Shown here piece after piece: positions 6,411 to 32,389 of a stretch of DNA of 32,389 nucleotides. Within the stretch, counting starts at the first letter, position 1, and every line of letters begins with the position of its first letter. The stretch comes from a virus: IMG/VR virus record IMGVR_UViG_3300049149_000006, positions 1 to 32,389 of that record. The stretch is one strand, 5' to 3'. A program made the position numbers and the translations under genes. A model generated the notes under the pieces. That model was not told the origin of the DNA and searched no databases. It worked only from the letters and a program-made list of their open reading frames with translations.

Positions 6411-6607
6411 AAGGTCACGGCTGGGAGGCCGAGGAGGATGAACATGGCGCGGTGACCGTCACCTATGACGGTCGACTCATCGCGCTCATGAGCCGGGAGA
6501 CATGGGACAGGCTCGACAAGGCGCTCACCGGGCGACCGCATTGCGCCTGGTGTGCGCCCGGTATCGACTGCCCGAGGCATCCGAGCGACGATGAAGCCAA
6601 GCGTTGA
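6407..6607 (+). CDS. Small protein with CxxC...CxxH motif (66 aa)
   Basis: GTG at 6407 overlaps the previous stop. Residues 1-40 form a short beta-helix region (AVTVTYDGRLIALMSRETWDR) and the C-terminal part holds CAWCAPGIDCPRH, a compact CxxC-x5-CxxH zinc knuckle candidate. It is the last gene of the overlapping early chain; a gap of about 90 bases follows. Function unknown. Confidence 0.58.
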   Translation: MKGHGWEAEEDEHGAVTVTYDGRLIALMSRETWDRLDKALTGRPHCAWCAPGIDCPRHPSDDEAKR

Positions 6608-6655
6608 TTACTGGCGCCCCATGTCCGGGCTAATCGTCGAGACGTCGCCCATGGC

Positions 6656-6686
6656 ACCTGCGCAGTTTGACAACCTGCCCTAAGGT
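6656..6686 (+). promoter_or_regulatory. Promoter-like element shared with 8287-8317
   Basis: In the 91-base gap before the UDP-glucose dehydrogenase gene, ACCTGCGCA (6656-6664) is followed after 16 bases by TAAGGT (6681-6686). The same nine-base box and the same 16-base spacing to TAGGTT occur before the gene at 8337. The spacing between CTGCGC and the TA-box (17 bases) is that of a sigma70-type promoter, though the boxes do not match the consensus. A TTGACA lies between the boxes at 6667-6672 but has no good -10 partner. Function inferred from repetition and position. Confidence 0.4.
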
Positions 6687-6698
6687 GCTCTCTGCGCA

Positions 6699-8021
6699 AT
6701 GCGACTTGTCATCTTCGGCGCCGGCTACGTCGGCCTCGTCACGGGCACGGGCCTATCGGATCTCGGGCACGACGTGCTCGTTTACGACATCGATGCGGCG
6801 AAGCTTGCCATGCTCGCCGAGGGGCGCATCCCGATCTACGAGCCGGGGCTGGCGGATCTGGTCCACCGGAATCAGCGATGTGGGCGTTTGCAATTCGCAA
6901 ATGTCATCGAGTCCCCGTGGGATGCGGCGGATGCCTACTTCATCGCCGTAGGCACGCCGCCAGGTCCGGATGGAGCGGCGGACCTCAGCGCGGTCATGTC
7001 GGCGGCGGACATGATCGCGAAGATCGCGACAGAGCCGGCCCTCGTCGTCATGAAGAGTACGGTGCCGGTCGGGACGTGCGACTCCGTCCAGAAGCGCATC
7101 GACAAGTCGATGATGGCGCTCGAGGTCGTGTCTAACCCTGAGTTCCTGAAGGAAGGCGACGCGGTCAACGACTTCTTCAAGCCGGATCGCGTCGTCGTTG
7201 GCGCACGGAGTGGGGCGGCCAAGCAGGCGATGTCCGACCTCTACGCGCCTCTGCAGCTTTGCGGCGATCGAATGGTCATGACCGATCCGCGCTCGAGCGA
7301 GTTGATCAAGTACGCGGCGAACACGATGCTGGCCGTGCGCATCTCGTTCATGAATGAACTGTCGCGCCTCTGCCATGCGACGGGCGCAGACATCCATTCG
7401 GTTAGGCTGGGCGTAGGCTCGGACTCACGCATCGGACCGCGGTTCCTCTATGCCGGGCCTGGTTACGGCGGCTCGTGCTTCCCGAAGGACGTGCAGGCGC
7501 TGTCTGCGATGGGGCGCGAGCATGGCGTGGCGATGAGCATTGCCGACGCCGCGCACGCGGCCAACGAATCGCAGGCACTCTTCCTCGCGGAGCTCGTCGA
7601 GAAGGCGCTCGGTGGGCTCGCTGGGAAGCGCATCGCGCTATGGGGGCTGGCATTCAAGCCGGAGACGGACGACATTCGGGAGGCGCCGGCGGTGAAGCTT
7701 GCGCGCGTGCTGCTCGACAAGGGCGCCAGTGTTGCGGGTCACGATCCGGAGGCCGGGGCGAACTTCGCCAAGCTGTTCGGCGATCGGGTGACTGTGTGCG
7801 ACCGGGATTACGATGCGCTGGATGGGGCGCATGCGCTGGTCATGCTGACGGAGTGGCGCAGCTATCGGGCGCCGAGCTTCGGCGAGATGCGACGGCGGCT
7901 AGCGGGCGACGGGCTTGTCGTTGATGCGCGGAACATATGGCGTCCGGCGGACGTGGTGCGGGCGGGGTTGAGGTATCGGGGGATTGGGGTGGCAATCGAC
8001 GCAGACCGGGAGACGAAGTAA
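6699..8021 (+). CDS. ugd: UDP-glucose 6-dehydrogenase
   Basis: A full-length (440 aa) member of the UDP-glucose/GDP-mannose dehydrogenase family, which oxidises UDP-glucose to UDP-glucuronate with two NAD+. Seen directly: the Rossmann motif GAGYVGL (7-13), the acidic end of strand 2 (VYDID), YEPGL (47-51), STVPVGT (120-126), NPEFLKEGDAVNDF (146-159), ELIKYAANTML with the catalytic Lys204, GPGYGGSCFPKD with the catalytic Cys260, and the C-terminal UDP-binding domain (LWGLAFKPETDDIRE). Nothing essential is missing. It lies between phage early genes with no other sugar gene nearby; possible roles are altering host capsule or surface polysaccharide or draining UDP-glucose. GDP-mannose dehydrogenase is less likely from the motifs. 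Confidence 0.92.
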   Translation: MRLVIFGAGYVGLVTGTGLSDLGHDVLVYDIDAAKLAMLAEGRIPIYEPGLADLVHRNQRCGRLQFANVIESPWDAADAYFIAVGTPPGPDGAADLSAVMSAADMIAKIATEPALVVMKSTVPVGTCDSVQKRIDKSMMALEVVSNPEFLKEGDAVNDFFKPDRVVVGARSGAAKQAMSDLYAPLQLCGDRMVMTDPRSSELIKYAANTMLAVRISFMNELSRLCHATGADIHSVRLGVGSDSRIGPRFLYAGPGYGGSCFPKDVQALSAMGREHGVAMSIADAAHAANESQALFLAELVEKALGGLAGKRIALWGLAFKPETDDIREAPAVKLARVLLDKGASVAGHDPEAGANFAKLFGDRVTVCDRDYDALDGAHALVMLTEWRSYRAPSFGEMRRRLAGDGLVVDARNIWRPADVVRAGLRYRGIGVAIDADRETK

Positions 8022-10231: not shown

Positions 10232-11554
10232 ATGCCAACTCGCGCTCCAAAGCCCAGCCATAAGCACGCAAGTCCGCGTAATCAGGTGCCACTGGCGAAA
10301 CCCAAACCAGCCGAAACCGTGTCACTGGAACCGGCGGCCGAATGGGTTCCGATCGAGAAGCTGACGCCGTGGGTGAAGAATCCGCGGAAGAACGACAAGG
10401 CGGTCGACAAGATCGCGGAGTCGATCAAGACCTTTGGCTTCGGAGCTCCACTGCTCGCGCGGAAAGAGAACGGCGAGGTCATCGCCGGGCACACGCGGAT
10501 CAAGGCGGCGAAGAAGCTCGGGATGACGCGGCTGCCGGTCCGGTACATGGACCTGGACGAGGCGAAGGCTCACGCACTGGCGATTGCCGACAACAAGCTG
10601 GGGGAGATCGCGGCTTGGGATGATGCGCTGCTGGCCGATGTGTTGGCAGAGATTCGAGACGCAGGCGTCGCTCCGGAAACCACTGGCGTTGCCGATGCGG
10701 AGTTCAGGAAACTCCTTGAGCTAAACGACTCGACGCCCGACGGGGCCGCTTTGGAATCGCCTCCGGAAAAGCTCCAGCGGAAGTGGAAGACGAAGCTCGG
10801 TCAGCTCTGGGAGATCCCGAGCAAGACCACGCCGGGTGGAATGCACCGCCTCGCCTGCGGATCATCCACGGACGCCAATGTCGCACGGCGTGCCGGGGGG
10901 GGGCTTGAGTGCGACATGATGTGGACGGACCCGCCGTATGGCGTGGCCTATGTTGGAAAGACCGATGATGCGCTTCGCATCGAAAACGACGCGCAGTCGC
11001 CGGACGAACTCCGGGCATTCCTCGTCGAATGCTTCAAGGCGGCGCCGCTGAAGCCAGGCGCGGCCTGGTATATATGCCACCCGGCGGGTGGCATACACTT
11101 GCAGTTTCGTCTTGCGACAGACGCAGTCGGCTGGGTCTATCGGCAGGGCCTCGTGTGGGTGAAGGACTCGATGGTCCTCGGCCGGAGTGACTACCACTAC
11201 AAGCATGAGCCGATCATCTTCGGCTACGCACCAGGCAAAGGCCGTCGTGGGCGCGGTGGTGCCGGCTGGCACGGCGGCAACGCCGAGACATCGGTGTTTG
11301 ATGTCGAGCGTCCGAAGGCAAACGAACTCCACCCGACAATGAAGCCGGTGGAACTTGTGGCGCGCATGGTCCGCAACTCCAGCGCGCCAGGCGAGAACGT
11401 CTACGAGCCGTTCTCCGGCTCAGGCAGCACCATGCTCGCATGCGAGATCACCGGGCGCCTCTGCCGAGCCATCGAGCTCGATCCAAAGTACGTCGCCGTT
11501 GCGCTCGAGCGCATGGCGGAAGTCGGCTGCAATGGGCAACTCAGCGAAGCGTGA
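10232..11554 (+). CDS. ParB-like domain / DNA methyltransferase fusion
   Basis: A 440-aa fusion common next to phage terminases. Residues 35-125 are a ParB/Srx-type domain (VPIEKLTPWVKNPRKND, then GEVIAGHTRIKAAKKLG at 81-97 and DEAKAHALAIADNK). Residues 185-435 are an amino-methyltransferase of the beta order: catalytic DPPY (233-236) first, LVWVKDS and KHEPIIFG in the middle, HPTMKP (367-372), then the SAM-binding EPFSGSGST (392-400). It is predicted to methylate adenine N6 or cytosine N4. The basic N-terminal 30 residues are unassigned. The ATG at 10232 has only a weak leader (TAGG). Virion-DNA protection or marking of packaging substrate are possible roles. Confidence 0.9.
   Translation: MPTRAPKPSHKHASPRNQVPLAKPKPAETVSLEPAAEWVPIEKLTPWVKNPRKNDKAVDKIAESIKTFGFGAPLLARKENGEVIAGHTRIKAAKKLGMTRLPVRYMDLDEAKAHALAIADNKLGEIAAWDDALLADVLAEIRDAGVAPETTGVADAEFRKLLELNDSTPDGAALESPPEKLQRKWKTKLGQLWEIPSKTTPGGMHRLACGSSTDANVARRAGGGLECDMMWTDPPYGVAYVGKTDDALRIENDAQSPDELRAFLVECFKAAPLKPGAAWYICHPAGGIHLQFRLATDAVGWVYRQGLVWVKDSMVLGRSDYHYKHEPIIFGYAPGKGRRGRGGAGWHGGNAETSVFDVERPKANELHPTMKPVELVARMVRNSSAPGENVYEPFSGSGSTMLACEITGRLCRAIELDPKYVAVALERMAEVGCNGQLSEA
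11073..11095 (+). repeat. Perfect 10-bp inverted repeat, 3-base loop
   Basis: TATGCCACCC (11073-11082) and GGGTGGCATA (11086-11095) are exact reverse complements around GGC. The hairpin lies inside the methyltransferase domain coding region (residues around 281-288). There is no T tract. It could be an operator, an RNA stem affecting translation of the gene or its downstream partner, or a chance palindrome; perfect stems of this length are rare by chance in a window of this size. Confidence 0.6.
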
Positions 11555-21884: not shown

Positions 21885-22274
21885 ATGTCGAACCGACCGA
21901 GGCTTCGTTTCTTGTGCCGTGGTACGGCGCAGGTCGCCGATCCGAATGCGCAGCTGAATGGCAATCGCCGCTGCATTGGACGTCGCTGGCAGGAAGTGGT
22001 GCCCGGCACCTGGTCCTGGTGCCCGACCGACAAGGCGGACGAGACGGACTACCACCCCGACCTCGTGCAGGCCTGCAAAGAAGGCGACCTCTGGGCTGCC
22101 GACGACGCTACTGCGAAGGCGTGCGGTGTTGCGTTCGATCCGACGTTTGGCGGCGAGACGACCCAGACCATCAAGGACTTCAAGGCCCAGCAGAGTGGCG
22201 AAGCGCCTAAGGCGGAAGAGCCGGTGAAGAAGAGCGAGCAGTCGGCGAAGGCCGGCGGGAAGGGTGAAGTCTGA
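21885..22274 (+). CDS. Small protein before the sheath gene, DUF2635-position (129 aa)
   Basis: A 129-aa protein with GAAGGG eight bases before the ATG. Residues 5-75 carry strands and aromatic residues (RLRFLCRGTAQVADPNAQLNGNRRCIGRRW; VPGTWSWCPTDKADE) and end in an acidic helical stretch; the last 45 residues are a Glu/Lys/Ser-rich tail (EAPKAEEPVKKSEQS). Mu-like phages have a small DUF2635-type gene at this place before the sheath; the pattern here is looser and I do not claim the family. Overlaps the sheath start by one base (TGATG). Confidence 0.6.
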   Translation: MSNRPRLRFLCRGTAQVADPNAQLNGNRRCIGRRWQEVVPGTWSWCPTDKADETDYHPDLVQACKEGDLWAADDATAKACGVAFDPTFGGETTQTIKDFKAQQSGEAPKAEEPVKKSEQSAKAGGKGEV

Positions 22275-23860
22275 TGCCCGGCGCAATTACCCTCACGGGA
22301 TTCACTAGTTCGGACCCAGTGCCCGGCAGTTATCTCGAGATTGCATTCGCCCAAGGCGATGCAGCCGGATCGGGCTCGCCAATCGAAGTCCTACTCATGG
22401 GCAACATGCTCACGAGCACGGGCTCGGCGACGCCGGACACGACGGTCTACGGGCCGGATACGGCGGTCCAGCTCGTCACCGAGCAGGACTGCATCAACCT
22501 CTTCGGCACCGGATCCGAGCTCCACCGGATGTTTCGGCGGTTCACGAAGGTGAACAAGTCGACGACGGTGCGCGCGATCGCCGTGTCCGAGTCCGCCGGT
22601 GCACAGGCAACGGGCACCATCACGTTCGTCGGTACCGCAACGGCGGCAGGCACGGCGCGCATCTTCGTCGGCGACGAGTATGCGGACGTCGCGATCGCCA
22701 ACCTCGACACCTCCTCGACGGCGGCGACGAACGCGGCAACGGCGATCAACACGAAGACGCACTGGGGCGTCACGGCTACAGCCACGGCGACCGGCGTCTG
22801 GGGCTACCTCCGGATCACCGCGCGCCAGAAGGGCACGCGCGGCAACGAGATCCGCTATATGCCGCAGATCACGCCGGCGATCGGAATGACGATCCCCACG
22901 GCGGTCGATCAGGCGATGGCCGGTGGCACGACGGCAGACGACAACACCACCGCGCTCGCGACGATCAACACGTCGAAGTACTACTACATCGCCTCGGCCG
23001 CGGGCGACGCGACGCAGTTCGGCGCCCTCGTCACGCAGATCGGCACGAACGCGGCGCCGACGGTCGGTATCCGCCAGCGCGCGATCGCAGGCAGCGTCGA
23101 CACCATCTCGAACACCAACACCATCGCCACCGGACGCAACTCGGCTCGAGCCGACCTCGTCTGGATGAAGTGGTCCCCGTGGACGGGTGGCGAGCTCGCG
23201 GCAAACCTCGCGGCGGTCATCACCGCCTTCGAGACGAAGCCGAACCCGCGGACCAACTTCTGCGGCTTCGGCAATGACGCACTCACGGCGCCCTACTGGC
23301 TCGTCCCGCGCCCGCGACTCGACAGCGCGATCCCGAGCCGATCGCAGGTCCAAAGCGCGCTCCTCAACGGCGTGACTCCGATCGGCATCAACCCGAACGG
23401 GTCGACCTACCTCGTCGACCTCATCACGACGCGCAGCCTCAACGGCTCGGTCAACGACTACCGCATCGCCGACCATCACAAGGTCACGATCTGCGACTTC
23501 TTCGGCGAGGACTTGCTCGCCAAAACAATCCTCAACCACCCGGGGATGCGCATCATGGACGATGCGCCCGATGGCTCGCCGCAGCCTGGTGATCAGGTCG
23601 TCACTCCGAAGCGCTACCGCTCGACGGTGTTCGGTCTCATCGACACCTACGCGGGCAATGACCTTCTGCAGGATGTGCAGTTGATCAAGGACGGGACGCA
23701 GATTCAGCGAGAGCAGAGCCCGCGCACGCGATTGGCGTGTCGGATTCCGCTGAGGCCGTGCGACAACGCCAAGCAATTCGCGATCCTGGTCCAACAAGTG
23801 TCTGCCTTCGCTCTTGGCGTTGGCCTCGCGGCATATGGAGTCCTTCAGCACCTCGCGTGA
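22274..23860 (+). CDS. Contractile tail sheath protein, Mu gpL-like
   Basis: A 528-aa sheath subunit. It has an N-terminal strand arm (PGAITLTGFTSSDPVPGSYLEI), a variable Thr/Ala-rich inserted domain (about 105-210, with FVGTATAAGTARIFVG and ATNAATAINTK), and the conserved C-terminal core: GFGNDALTAPYWL, PIGINPNGSTYLVDLITTRSLNGS, DYRIADHHKVTICDFFGEDL and FGLIDTYAGNDLLQDVQLIKDGT, closing LPLRPC-like IPLRPCDNAKQFAILVQQ. It forms the outer tube that contracts to drive the inner tube into the host cell. This is the decisive sign for a myovirus. Confidence 0.93.
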   Translation: MPGAITLTGFTSSDPVPGSYLEIAFAQGDAAGSGSPIEVLLMGNMLTSTGSATPDTTVYGPDTAVQLVTEQDCINLFGTGSELHRMFRRFTKVNKSTTVRAIAVSESAGAQATGTITFVGTATAAGTARIFVGDEYADVAIANLDTSSTAATNAATAINTKTHWGVTATATATGVWGYLRITARQKGTRGNEIRYMPQITPAIGMTIPTAVDQAMAGGTTADDNTTALATINTSKYYYIASAAGDATQFGALVTQIGTNAAPTVGIRQRAIAGSVDTISNTNTIATGRNSARADLVWMKWSPWTGGELAANLAAVITAFETKPNPRTNFCGFGNDALTAPYWLVPRPRLDSAIPSRSQVQSALLNGVTPIGINPNGSTYLVDLITTRSLNGSVNDYRIADHHKVTICDFFGEDLLAKTILNHPGMRIMDDAPDGSPQPGDQVVTPKRYRSTVFGLIDTYAGNDLLQDVQLIKDGTQIQREQSPRTRLACRIPLRPCDNAKQFAILVQQVSAFALGVGLAAYGVLQHLA

Positions 23861-28442: not shown

Positions 28443-29384
28443 ATGGCCGACACCGGACCGGACGTTCTGGGCGATCTCCTCGCCGCGAAATGGCGCGACA
28501 TCGAATTCCCGACGACACGCTTTCGCCTGTCGATCGCTCATGACCTCGTGGAGCACAAATATTGGGGCGTGGATGGAGCTCGAGTCGAGTCGACCGGCCT
28601 CGCTCCACTCCGCTTCACCTTCTCCTCTCCGCTCCTGAACGGCATCAGTCCTGGGCGCCGCGAGACATGGGCGGCGCTCTACCCGAACCAGTTTCGGATC
28701 CTCGTCGCAGCCTTCCAGAAGAAGGAGCGCGGGACTCTCCAGCATCCCGAGTTCGGACCGATCGTCTGCAAAGCCGAGCGATTCGATGTCGACTGGGAGG
28801 CGTCTCGGCGTGGCGGTGTCGACGCCGAGCTATCGTTCGTGGAAACGACTGTCGCCGACATCGAGGTCCGGGATGGCACGCCAGTCTCGGCGGTGGATAT
28901 CGGCGAGATCGACGATGAGACGTTCAAGGCGGACCTAAAGACGCTGCTCCAGGCGGCCGGATTGTCGCTTCCGCCCTATCTGCAAGGCAACAAGGTCTCA
29001 CTGACTGACTTCTTCAACTCGGTGAAGGCCGTCGCTGACTATCCATCGCTTCTCTCCTACCGCGCAGGCGGGCGAATCAACTCGATCCTGTATCACGCGA
29101 AGGCGATCCAGAAGTCCGCCGACAAGGCACGCGACGCCACGACATGGCCGGTCACGCAGAACGTCGAGCGGATCAAGGAAGGCGCCTTTGGTCTTCGAGA
29201 GAGGCTCGTGCAGGCGAACCGGACAATCGGGAAGTTCACCGTGCCAGCTGCGACGACGCTCGCTGGTGTAGCGCGGCAGATCGAGGGCGCCAAGATCGGC
29301 GATCTCATCGCGCTCAATCCAGGCCTGATGCGCGGGCCGGAGATCGATAAGGGCACCGTCGTCCGTTATTACAAGGCGGCCTAG
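28443..29384 (+). CDS. DNA-circulation-like (Mu gpN) protein with LysM-like tail
   Basis: A 313-aa baseplate protein. Residues 20-140 match the gpN / DNA_circ_N pattern: FPTTRFRLSIAHDLVEHKYWGVDGARVESTGLAPLRFTFSSPLLNG, QFRILVAAFQKKERGTLQHPEFGPI, VDAELSFVETT. The last 55 residues (FTVPAATTLAGVARQIEGAKIGDLIALNPGLMRGPEIDKGTVVRYY) have the LysM layout, TL...IA...G...L..LNP...I..G..V.Y, which binds peptidoglycan or anchors other tail proteins. TAGGAGA at the preceding stop is its ribosome site. Confidence 0.85.
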   Translation: MADTGPDVLGDLLAAKWRDIEFPTTRFRLSIAHDLVEHKYWGVDGARVESTGLAPLRFTFSSPLLNGISPGRRETWAALYPNQFRILVAAFQKKERGTLQHPEFGPIVCKAERFDVDWEASRRGGVDAELSFVETTVADIEVRDGTPVSAVDIGEIDDETFKADLKTLLQAAGLSLPPYLQGNKVSLTDFFNSVKAVADYPSLLSYRAGGRINSILYHAKAIQKSADKARDATTWPVTQNVERIKEGAFGLRERLVQANRTIGKFTVPAATTLAGVARQIEGAKIGDLIALNPGLMRGPEIDKGTVVRYYKAA

Positions 29385-29404: not shown

Positions 29405-30727
29405 ATGACCATTCCCTATCGACCCGGCGACCCGGACTCGCAGACGGTCCGGATTACGTTCCCGGACGTCGATAATCTGCTGCTCGAGCGCTGGACCTCC
29501 TACGACTTCTCGAGCGACTTCCTCACGCCAGCGGACAGCTTCAGCTTCACGCTTGGCCTCGACGAGGATGGCCTCTCCGAAGAGCTGAAGGATGCTCTCC
29601 GATTCGGCGCACGTATCCGTCTCGACCTGGACGGGAGCGTACTGGCGACTGGGCACATCGACGTCATGGAGAGCACGGCCGATCGCGGTAATGGCCTTCA
29701 GATCACAATCCACGGACGCGACCGGCTCGGACAGACTCTCGATGCGGTCGCGGACCCCACCTACCAGCTCAAAGAGGGCGGCTCTCTGGCGGATCTGCTC
29801 AAGGACCTGTTCGCGCCATTCGGATGGTCTGGTGAGGACCAATTCCAGATCGACCCGACGGCGAATCGCAACGCGAAGACGGGACTCCGCGGTACACCGA
29901 CTACAAGCAGCGGTGGCGGCGGGGGCAGCGGCAAGAGGCGACGTCATCGGAATCGAAAGGCGAGCGGCCCGAAGCCTCTCAAAAGCTTCGTCCTCCACCA
30001 AACGAAGCCATACAACCACGAGAGCGTCTACCACTTCGCCTCTCGCGTATCCCAAAGGCACGGGCTCTGGATCCGGTGCAGCGCCGATGGCGAGACGCTC
30101 ATCGTCGGCAAGCCAGACTTTGAGCAGGAAGCCTCCTACTCGCTCTTCCGGACACGGAATGGCAATAGCAACGTCCTGTCCGGCACCGTTACGCTCGAGA
30201 TGACGAACCAGCCATCGATCCTCGTCGCCGATTCCTTCTCCGGCGGCGGCGAATACGGCAAGGGACGGCACCGCTCCTACTGCGTCAACCCGCTGCTCGG
30301 ATATGACGAGGATCACAACCTGCTGCCCGAAGTGCAGAAGATCATCGACGGTCTGAAGGGCGCTACCGAGGTGAAGGTGCCCTCTTCCACATTCTTCTAT
30401 CGCGCTCGCAAAGGCATTCCGCCTCGGCCGATGTACCTGCACGACGACGAGAGCAAGACGCAGGAGCAGCTAGAGAACTTCGTCAAGCGAGAGATGAGTC
30501 TGCTCGTCCGGCAGGGCGTCCGCGCTCACTACGTCGTCGAAGGACATGGTCAGGAGACGGATGACGGTTTCCTCATCTGGGCGCCGGACACGGTCGTCCA
30601 TGTGCAGGACGACGCAGCCGGACTCGACGACGATCTCTACGTTCTCGGCTGCCATTACTCCAAGTCGCGGCATGGCGGGACGACCACACGTCTCGATCTG
30701 GTCTTGAAGAACTCGCTCGCCTTCTGA
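29405..30727 (+). CDS. Baseplate hub protein, Mu gpP-like
   Basis: A 440-aa hub of the gpD/gp44-like group that forms the base of the tail spike. Seen: a beta-barrel N-terminus (QTVRITFPDVDNLLLERWTSYDFSSDFLTPADSFSFTLG, RIRLDLDGSVLATGHIDVMES, GLQITIHGRDRLGQTLDAV), an intervening Gly/Ser/Arg-rich linker (about 170-192, GGGGGSGKRRRHRNRK), then VYHFASRVSQRHGLWIRCSADGETLIVG and the final DLVLKNSLAF. The basic linker is unusual in the hub. Sits before the spike gene as in Mu. Confidence 0.88.
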   Translation: MTIPYRPGDPDSQTVRITFPDVDNLLLERWTSYDFSSDFLTPADSFSFTLGLDEDGLSEELKDALRFGARIRLDLDGSVLATGHIDVMESTADRGNGLQITIHGRDRLGQTLDAVADPTYQLKEGGSLADLLKDLFAPFGWSGEDQFQIDPTANRNAKTGLRGTPTTSSGGGGGSGKRRRHRNRKASGPKPLKSFVLHQTKPYNHESVYHFASRVSQRHGLWIRCSADGETLIVGKPDFEQEASYSLFRTRNGNSNVLSGTVTLEMTNQPSILVADSFSGGGEYGKGRHRSYCVNPLLGYDEDHNLLPEVQKIIDGLKGATEVKVPSSTFFYRARKGIPPRPMYLHDDESKTQEQLENFVKREMSLLVRQGVRAHYVVEGHGQETDDGFLIWAPDTVVHVQDDAAGLDDDLYVLGCHYSKSRHGGTTTRLDLVLKNSLAF

Positions 30728-30739
30728 GGGGTCATCGCA

Positions 30740-31666
30740 ATGGCAGCACCCGACGCACGCGGCCAGGTCAAGGTCGGACAGGACGTGCTCAACACGCGCA
30801 TCCATCCGAAGACGAAGAAGATGCTCGCCCAGCTCGGCGACGTCGTCCATGAGACGACGGATACTGACAACGCCGAGATCTGGTTCGCGCCAGGCATGTT
30901 CGCTCGTCCGTCGAAGCCCGAGGCTGGCAAGACGGCGCCGCAGTCCGTGTCGCTCTGCGCTGGCGATCACGACATCGTCATCGCGATGACGGATGAGCGA
31001 GGGCGCGAGCTGCAGGCCACGCTCGACTACGGCGAGACGGGCATGTATGCGGCCGGCCCGGATGGCACCGCGCAGGCGCGAGTGCTGCTGAAGAAGAACG
31101 GCACCATCGCGATCTTCACGAAGAAGGGCAACACCAAGGACGGCGTCGGCATTCAGATTGCCGTCAACGCCGACGGGTCGATCACGATTGCTGGGTCGGA
31201 GGGCAACGCGATCCTTCTCGGCAGCGACGGATCGATCAAGGCCTTCAACAGCTCCGGAGGCTTCTCGGTCTCCTCGAGCGGAGTGGTCAAGGTATCCGGA
31301 AGCACGCAGCTCGCGCTATCCGCTGGCTCCGTCGCGATCGGTGGGCCCGCCGGACTGCCGATTGCGATCGGACCGAACGTCGTAACGGCGATCACTGCGC
31401 TGCAATCGCAAATCACGACGCTGCAGACCGAGGTAACCGCGCTGAAGACCGAGCTCACGATCATGGCGGTCGCATGGGCAGCGCTTGGCGCACTGTCCGG
31501 GCCGATCCTTGGGGTCATGGTGGCTCCCATCGCAGCACCCGTCGCCGCTGCCGAGGTCGCAGCGCTGGCGTCCGTGATTTCTGGAGCCGGTGCGGTCGCA
31601 GCGAGTACCGCCGCACAATCCGCAGCCTCCGCCATCATCCCGTCGGTTCGCACGACCTCCGACTGA
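30740..31666 (+). CDS. Baseplate spike protein, Mu gp45-like, with hydrophobic C-terminus
   Basis: A 308-aa spike. Residues 66-115 are OB-fold-like strands (SVSLCAGDHDIVIAMTDERG), and 116-212 a stack of short beta repeats (KKNGTIAIFTKKGN, NADGSITIAGSEGNAILLGSDGSIKAFNSSGGFSVSSSGVVKVSG) like the trimeric beta-helix of Mu gp45. Residues 213-240 are a heptad coil (ITALQSQITTLQTEVTALKTEL). Unexpectedly, residues 241-282 are strongly hydrophobic (IMAVAWAALGALSGPILGVMVAPIAAPV and AALASVIS), and the end is Ala/Ser-rich. Mu gp45 is much shorter (about 200 aa). A membrane-seeking tip is one reading. Confidence 0.85.
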   Translation: MAAPDARGQVKVGQDVLNTRIHPKTKKMLAQLGDVVHETTDTDNAEIWFAPGMFARPSKPEAGKTAPQSVSLCAGDHDIVIAMTDERGRELQATLDYGETGMYAAGPDGTAQARVLLKKNGTIAIFTKKGNTKDGVGIQIAVNADGSITIAGSEGNAILLGSDGSIKAFNSSGGFSVSSSGVVKVSGSTQLALSAGSVAIGGPAGLPIAIGPNVVTAITALQSQITTLQTEVTALKTELTIMAVAWAALGALSGPILGVMVAPIAAPVAAAEVAALASVISGAGAVAASTAAQSAASAIIPSVRTTSD

Positions 31667-31672
31667 AGCGTC

Positions 31673-32002
31673 TTGTGCAACTTCAAGCCCCTCGCATTCC
31701 CCGATCTCCCAGAGCTGCCGAGCCTTGGCCTCCCAACGCTCGCCATCCCGTTCAAGATCGAGCTGCCCTCGTTCGATCCAGATCTCCCGGGCGTCAGTCT
31801 CTCCTTCCCGGATCTCCCCGAACTGCCAAGCCTCGGCCTTCCGACGCTCGCGTTCCCATTCAAGATCGAATTGCCATCATTCGATCCGGACATCCCAGGC
31901 GTGGCGCTCTCCTTTCCGGATCTCCCTGAGCTACCGAGCCTAGGTCTCCCTGCCCTGACGATCCCTTTCGAACTCCCCGCCTTCCCCTGCCCGCTGGACT
32001 GA
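31673..32002 (+). CDS. Pro/Leu-rich tandem-repeat protein (109 aa)
   Basis: TTG start at 31673, six bases after the spike gene, with no strong ribosome site. After a short N-terminus (MCNFKPLA) come two almost identical 36-residue units, FPDLPELPSLGLPTLA-[IF]-PFKIELPSFDPD, and a shorter third that ends in a Cys-Pro turn (FPCPLD). Prolines recur about every three residues, so the chain is probably extended, not helical. Cys lies at residue 2 and near the end. The family is not recognised; the position after the spike and before the baseplate wedge gene suggests a tail-tip or baseplate accessory part. Confidence 0.7.
   Translation: MCNFKPLAFPDLPELPSLGLPTLAIPFKIELPSFDPDLPGVSLSFPDLPELPSLGLPTLAFPFKIELPSFDPDIPGVALSFPDLPELPSLGLPALTIPFELPAFPCPLD
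31697..31999 (+). repeat. 108-bp coding tandem repeat
   Basis: Units at 31697-31804 and 31805-31912 each encode 36 residues, with a partial third at 31913-31999. Protein copies are nearly identical (differences I/F, L/I, S/A), while third-codon bases differ between units (ctcccagagctg / ctccccgaactg / ctccctgagcta), showing selection on the protein after an old duplication. Confidence 0.85.
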
Positions 32003-32020: not shown

Positions 32021-32389
32021 ATGCCCGGAGCAGGAATGCAAGCCGCCGGAACGACGAGCGGCGGCTATGGCACGTCTCCGGTCGCGACCGGCTTCGGCGG
32101 CGCCTTCCTGCGAGACATCCGCACCGGCGAATCGCATGCGGCTCGCTTCATCGATCCGGTGACGCGCGACTACGTAATCGACGAGTACGGACGCCTCCTC
32201 GGTATGAGCCCCGTGCGGCAGGCGGTGCAGCTCAGCGTCCACACCGAGCGCGGCACAGCCGCAGTGCAGGCCATGGGGCAGCGGCTGCGTCAGCTCCAGC
32301 GCATCACCGCCGGCTTCGACCGCATCATGCTCAACGTCCTCACCGAGGCGGTGCAGCCGCTCATCGATCAGGGCCTCATCGAGGTCGTC
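32021..32389 (+). CDS. Baseplate wedge protein, gpW/gp25- or Mu gp46-like (5' part)
   Basis: The reading frame runs from ATG 32021 (CAGGAGA upstream) to the window edge without a stop: 123 codons. After a Gly-rich start it reads FLRDIRTGESHAARFIDPVTRDYVIDEYGRLLGMSPVRQAVQLSVHTERGTAAVQAMGQRL, then RIMLNVLTEAVQPLIDQGLIEVV. The DYVID..GR......R.A.QLS..TERG order matches GPW_gp25-type wedge proteins, which join the baseplate around the hub. Continues outside the window. Confidence 0.75.
   Translation, partial: MPGAGMQAAGTTSGGYGTSPVATGFGGAFLRDIRTGESHAARFIDPVTRDYVIDEYGRLLGMSPVRQAVQLSVHTERGTAAVQAMGQRLRQLQRITAGFDRIMLNVLTEAVQPLIDQGLIEVV

Follow-up and report, generated by a model that had tools for sequence, protein, structure and literature searches.

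PAAR-repeat proteins (PF05488) are the tips of the VgrG spikes of the T6SS and of some phage and CIS spikes, with a metal site of three histidines and one cysteine at the point, binding zinc. In the trimeric gpV/gp45-like spikes of P2, Mu, phi92 and Milano, the membrane-piercing end is the HxH apex, which belongs to the spike chain itself and holds iron (PMC10811340, PMC11448403, PMC11915804). The HxH motif coordinates this iron in P2, phi92, Mu and probably Milano (PMC10811340; PMC11448403), and the Mu spike apex is described with presumed Fe and Ca (PMC11915804). The way in which contractile phage and secretion spikes end, and in which a single-chain tip fits a threefold spike, is known mainly from PAAR and the HxH apex. 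Mu gp43 to gp48 comprise the tube initiator, the hub, the spike and the wedges (PMC11915804), which leaves no further gene between gp45 and gp46 in Mu.

The stretch of DNA analysed here (the window) is a 32,389-base IMG/VR virus record from a contractile-tailed phage with a terminase, a portal and a tail sheath. Its baseplate genes run in the order gp43-like, gp44-like hub, spike, repeat ORF and gp46-like gene. This is the gene order of the gp43-gp47 block of Mu, which has the same contractile tail type and whose gp45 is matched by the spike profile; the difference is that a three-unit protein is inserted here exactly between the gp45 and gp46 positions. The relevant features are:

22274..23860, + strand: contractile tail sheath (phrog_165, 4.7e-64)
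28443..29384, + strand: gp43-like baseplate hub protein with a DNA circularisation N-terminus (PF07157, 7e-8; phrog_184)
29405..30727, + strand: gpP/gp44-like baseplate hub (Pfam PF21683, 3.1e-10; phrog_177, 3.7e-37)
30740..31666, + strand: gp45/gpV-like trimeric spike without HxH apex (16-spike profile against Mu gp45 and gpV-like spikes)
31673..32002, + strand: Pro-rich three-unit protein of 109 aa with a TTG start, proposed spike tip (ORF, period of 36, pS/pN and gene order)
31673..31780, + strand: unit 1, residues 1-36, departing from the repeat at its N-terminal end, around Cys2
31676..31678, + strand: Cys2, proposed half of a closing Cys pair (Cys within the first 12 residues in all family members)
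31781..31888, + strand: unit 2, residues 37-72
31889..31996, + strand: unit 3, residues 73-108, departing from the repeat at its C-terminal end, around Cys106
31988..31999, + strand: CPLD motif at the C-terminus, containing Cys106 (all members found end in CPL[DEN] or something close)
32021..32389, + strand: gp46-like baseplate wedge protein, truncated at the contig end (assigned by gene position and by alignment to its counterparts in relatives)

The gp46-like gene of the window has no profile match.

The repeat ORF noted in the initial annotation was confirmed at 31673-32002, directly behind the spike gene as described there. Translated from its TTG start, it reads MCNFKPLAFPDLPELPSLGLPTLAIPFKIELPSFDPDLPGVSLSFPDLP...FELPAFPCPLD, with the expected cysteines near both ends at residues 2 and 106. 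When the protein is compared with itself, the best shift is 36 residues, at which 51 of 73 positions agree, a score reached by none of 300 shuffles. The near-identical units of 36 residues therefore stand, whereas their number was put too low: at 3.03 periods, the protein consists of three units with altered outer ends and not of two and a half. Likewise, a proline about every third residue holds only locally, since proline makes up 23% of the residues overall. As also proposed, the protein is preserved while its codons have diverged. Among the 51 identical residues the codon differs in 28 and is the same in 23, and between the units pS is 0.65-0.70 against a pN of 0.02-0.11 (pN/pS 0.02-0.16). 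Synonymous sites that have diverged while the amino acids have barely changed indicate that the repeats are old, translated in the + frame and selected to stay alike. An overlapping open frame on the - strand was rejected as a real gene on this codon evidence, because a pS far above pN marks the + strand frame as the translated one.

Database searches returned no relatives. The window protein has no match in Pfam, PHROG, NCBIfam or PDB sequences, with nothing convincing in the family libraries, and a sequence search of viral contigs retrieved no relative. The tblastn matches in Acinetobacter and Microbacterium phages fall on Pro-rich stretches of other proteins, whose genes have unrelated surroundings. 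Profiles of the family described below gave only chance matches against PDB sequences; no relative was found in the bacterial genomes scanned or in plasmids searched by the J protein, and cultured phages contained neither relatives of the protein (tblastn with three other members) nor relatives of the spike. The only annotated record that carries the gene is from an uncultured phage (MW202476). A spike tip is a known kind of part; the family is new, and no description of the three-unit protein was found in the literature.

Relatives were traced by gene order and not by sequence, first via the hub and then via the baseplate J protein, reading the ORFs that precede J. The hub first gave two relatives. 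In one of these genomes, L007, the gene behind the spike encodes MSCGFPSFSLPG...DFPCPLD, also with a period of 36, and a later hub relative, L011, encodes MSACNFPSI...FCPLD with a period of 37. In total, the same gene (called the cap gene below) was found in 28 further uncultivated phage genomes, giving 29 distinct phages with the window; near-identical copies in further contigs were left out of this number. Gene order thus recovers a family missed by the profile libraries, because its sequences are too simple for profiles. In these 29 distinct, divergent phages the gene lies directly after a gp45-like spike gene and before a gp46-like wedge gene, with one extra ORF between the spike and cap genes in L057. 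The cap gene starts between 4 nt inside and 11 nt past the spike stop (a gap of -4 to +11 nt) in 21 of 21 cases measured. Members are Pro-rich ORFs that begin with M-x(0-4)-Cys (the Cys is at residue 12 in L071) and end with CPL[DEN] or a variant close to it; the window gene likewise combines a gp45-like spike upstream, an N-terminal Cys, a CPL[DEN]-like end and three units. A contractile sheath is encoded in all 27 carriers tested. Downstream of the gene, L007 (8408-8989) and L013 (5900-6478) have an extra ORF of about 190 residues before the gp46-like gene.

Three main kinds of member can be distinguished. The three-unit kind has 17 members, the window among them. The short kind, of 46-60 residues with one helix-like stretch, occurs in L015 (6314-6496), L018 (6349-6489) and L023 (6371-6520); these relatives have one unit with Cys at both ends and might form homotrimers in place of the three fused units of the window protein. 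The third kind has 81-96 residues and an internal Cys-Cys pair, and its C-terminal half looks helical (L006 8062-8346, L022 6270-6515 and L025 6252-6506; also L040 6238-6528, L053 5694-5954 and L071 3413-3703). Besides these, L024 and L027 encode long members without clear repeats. A profile built from eleven members matched a single site in each genome, always the correct one, and found one member from outside the set (L027, 5.7e-5); the exception was a weak second match (0.003) in the L014 record, which covers the gene itself but on the opposite strand. The apparent start codon of the three-unit gene in L052 (6225-6524) is ATT (MSCIFELP...), as with the usual start codons part of unit 1 would be lost. 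In L029 (MW202476, 3263-3574) the three-unit gene is unannotated, an overlapping ORF in another frame (UOF77303) being annotated instead.

The number of units is nearly constant, with three in 17 of the 18 repeat members. In these 17 proteins the length divided by the period is 2.91-3.17, with periods ranging from 33 to 46 and quite different repeat sequences. The exception, L085 (4616-4840), has only two units, nearly identical in DNA, which may be a true two-unit form or an assembly collapse. Similarity among units is 77% within a protein but averages 43% between proteins, which indicates that the three units changed together in each lineage. Moreover, three times the period minus the Cys-Cys distance leaves 3-5 residues in 16 of the 17 three-unit members, whatever the period. 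Exactly three units together with this Cys spacing argue for a closed ring on a threefold axis, as an open solenoid would need neither.

The neighbouring gene encodes a spike. Single spike sequences had almost no match, apart from a weak Pfam Gp45 match in L007 (E 0.036). However, when 16 of the spikes are combined into one profile, it matches the PDB chain of Mu gp45 (9ki1_V, E 0.0035) and other spikes, and hhalign pairs it with gpV-like spikes from Bordetella and other phages at a probability of 95.9. Neither HxH nor any His is present in the last 60 residues of the window spike. In this terminal part, HxH occurs in 1 of the 29 carriers, compared with 7 of 14 non-carriers at the apex (Fisher p 0.0007). 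This table does not count independent events, as the phages with HxH are a clade apart in which the J protein is shorter. L057 is the carrier with both HxH and a cap gene. Six relatives with a long J protein (L016, L020, L044, L069, L081 and L083) have neither a cap gene beside the spike nor HxH at the spike end; some such spikes therefore seem to manage without a cap or to keep it elsewhere. Two of these, L016 (5370-6517) and L083 (5298-6457), have typical spike tails with HIH about 50 residues before the spike end and two small unrelated ORFs in the place of the cap gene. In the window, the spike ends (31370-31666) in a coiled-coil-like part and an Ala-rich hydrophobic stretch that are absent from the aligned relatives.

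That the protein is not a PAAR protein, as suggested at the outset, was borne out. The PAAR_motif model (PF05488) has no match in the window protein (Pfam) nor in the 35 records searched, which include all 29 carriers. Histidine is absent from the window protein and from 15 other three-unit members (L061 has one), and with no His and only two Cys the His/Cys zinc site of PAAR cannot be built in the window protein. The two are alike in being small, of about 100 residues, with a single chain on a trimeric spike (proposed here), and the job is likely the same; they differ in that the window protein consists of Pro/Leu repeats. The HxH apex would share with it the position at the membrane-piercing end of the same trimeric spike, but it is part of the spike chain, whereas here a spike without HxH is followed by a separate gene.

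The fixed place in 29 contractile phages, the absence of PAAR and the lack of HxH in 28 of the 29 spikes favour the suggestion that this is an undescribed tail-tip or baseplate component. Most probably, it is a separate one-chain, pseudo-threefold tip that caps the trimeric spike and acts like PAAR or the HxH apex while belonging to neither. Spike and cap would be made together, and the single polypeptide would place its three like units round the spike axis as a pseudo-threefold cap at the far end, bound to the spike in the virion. The units would be held alike because each faces one of three identical spike chains. The N-terminal Cys and the Cys of the CPLD motif would adjoin and seal the ring, either through a disulfide or by sharing a metal site. 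Upon sheath contraction, the hydrophobic, proline-stiffened cap might then reach the host membrane ahead of all other parts and pierce it. AlphaFold2 gave no confident model for the window protein or for L047 (pLDDT 42 and 34), and these models do not show the threefold fold; such low confidence is not surprising for a Pro-rich chain that is proposed to fold only on its partner.

The strongest of the alternatives, although still unlikely, is a baseplate protein that is in the virion but is not its tip, e.g. one that plugs or clamps the junction of hub, spike and wedge. The position of the cap gene ahead of the gp46-like wedge gene is nearly as constant as its position behind the spike gene, and since the hub shares the C3 symmetry of the spike, against C6 in the wedges (PMC10811340), threefold units could sit on the hub too. 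However, it is the spike gene that the cap gene overlaps or nearly overlaps, while the gp46-like gene is separated from it by another ORF in L007 and L013, and the missing HxH leaves the tip and not the hub without its usual part. Less probable again is a non-virion assembly helper or membrane-active peptide (a spike chaperone, lysis accessory or host-directed factor) that merely travels with the tail genes. Such a role would suit a very hydrophobic, proline-rich protein that is poorly conserved in sequence, has short forms of 46-60 aa and gives no AlphaFold2 fold as a single chain, but the constant number of three units, the strong selection that keeps them alike and the Cys spacing suggest a structural part that is stiff and symmetric. 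Recent duplications or low-complexity DNA in which symmetry plays no role, e.g. an open Pro-rich stalk or solenoid, are very improbable and already disfavoured, for although the units of L007, L047 and L061 are nearly identical in DNA too and the Pro/Leu-rich sequence draws tblastn matches in unrelated phages, the units of the window and of most members have stayed alike despite strong divergence at synonymous sites, and the count of three recurs in all repeat members except L085.

If the spike-tip reading is true, uncultivated phages would have a separate and widespread family of tips as one more way of ending a spike; this would name a gene that is now blank in these genomes and would open the symmetry argument to a direct test. 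A more far-reaching version, which we put somewhat short of an even chance, is that this is a third, independently evolved spike tip of contractile machines, in which a single chain of three fused units closed by a Cys pair replaces both PAAR and the HxH apex. The one-unit proteins of L015, L018 and L023 would then be the homotrimeric form, showing a passage from three chains to one fused chain.

Some further genes were observed alongside. In L044, an ORF at 6603-6962 that looks SET-domain-like by eye lies between the gp46-like gene and J, inside the baseplate block. The early part of the window phage encodes a full-length UDP-glucose dehydrogenase-like protein (6699-8021; phrog_9148, 6.1e-91), perhaps serving sugar modification, and at 10232-11554 the window carries a ParB-like domain fused to a DNA methyltransferase (phrog_498, 4.2e-114; phrog_620, 3.9e-42).
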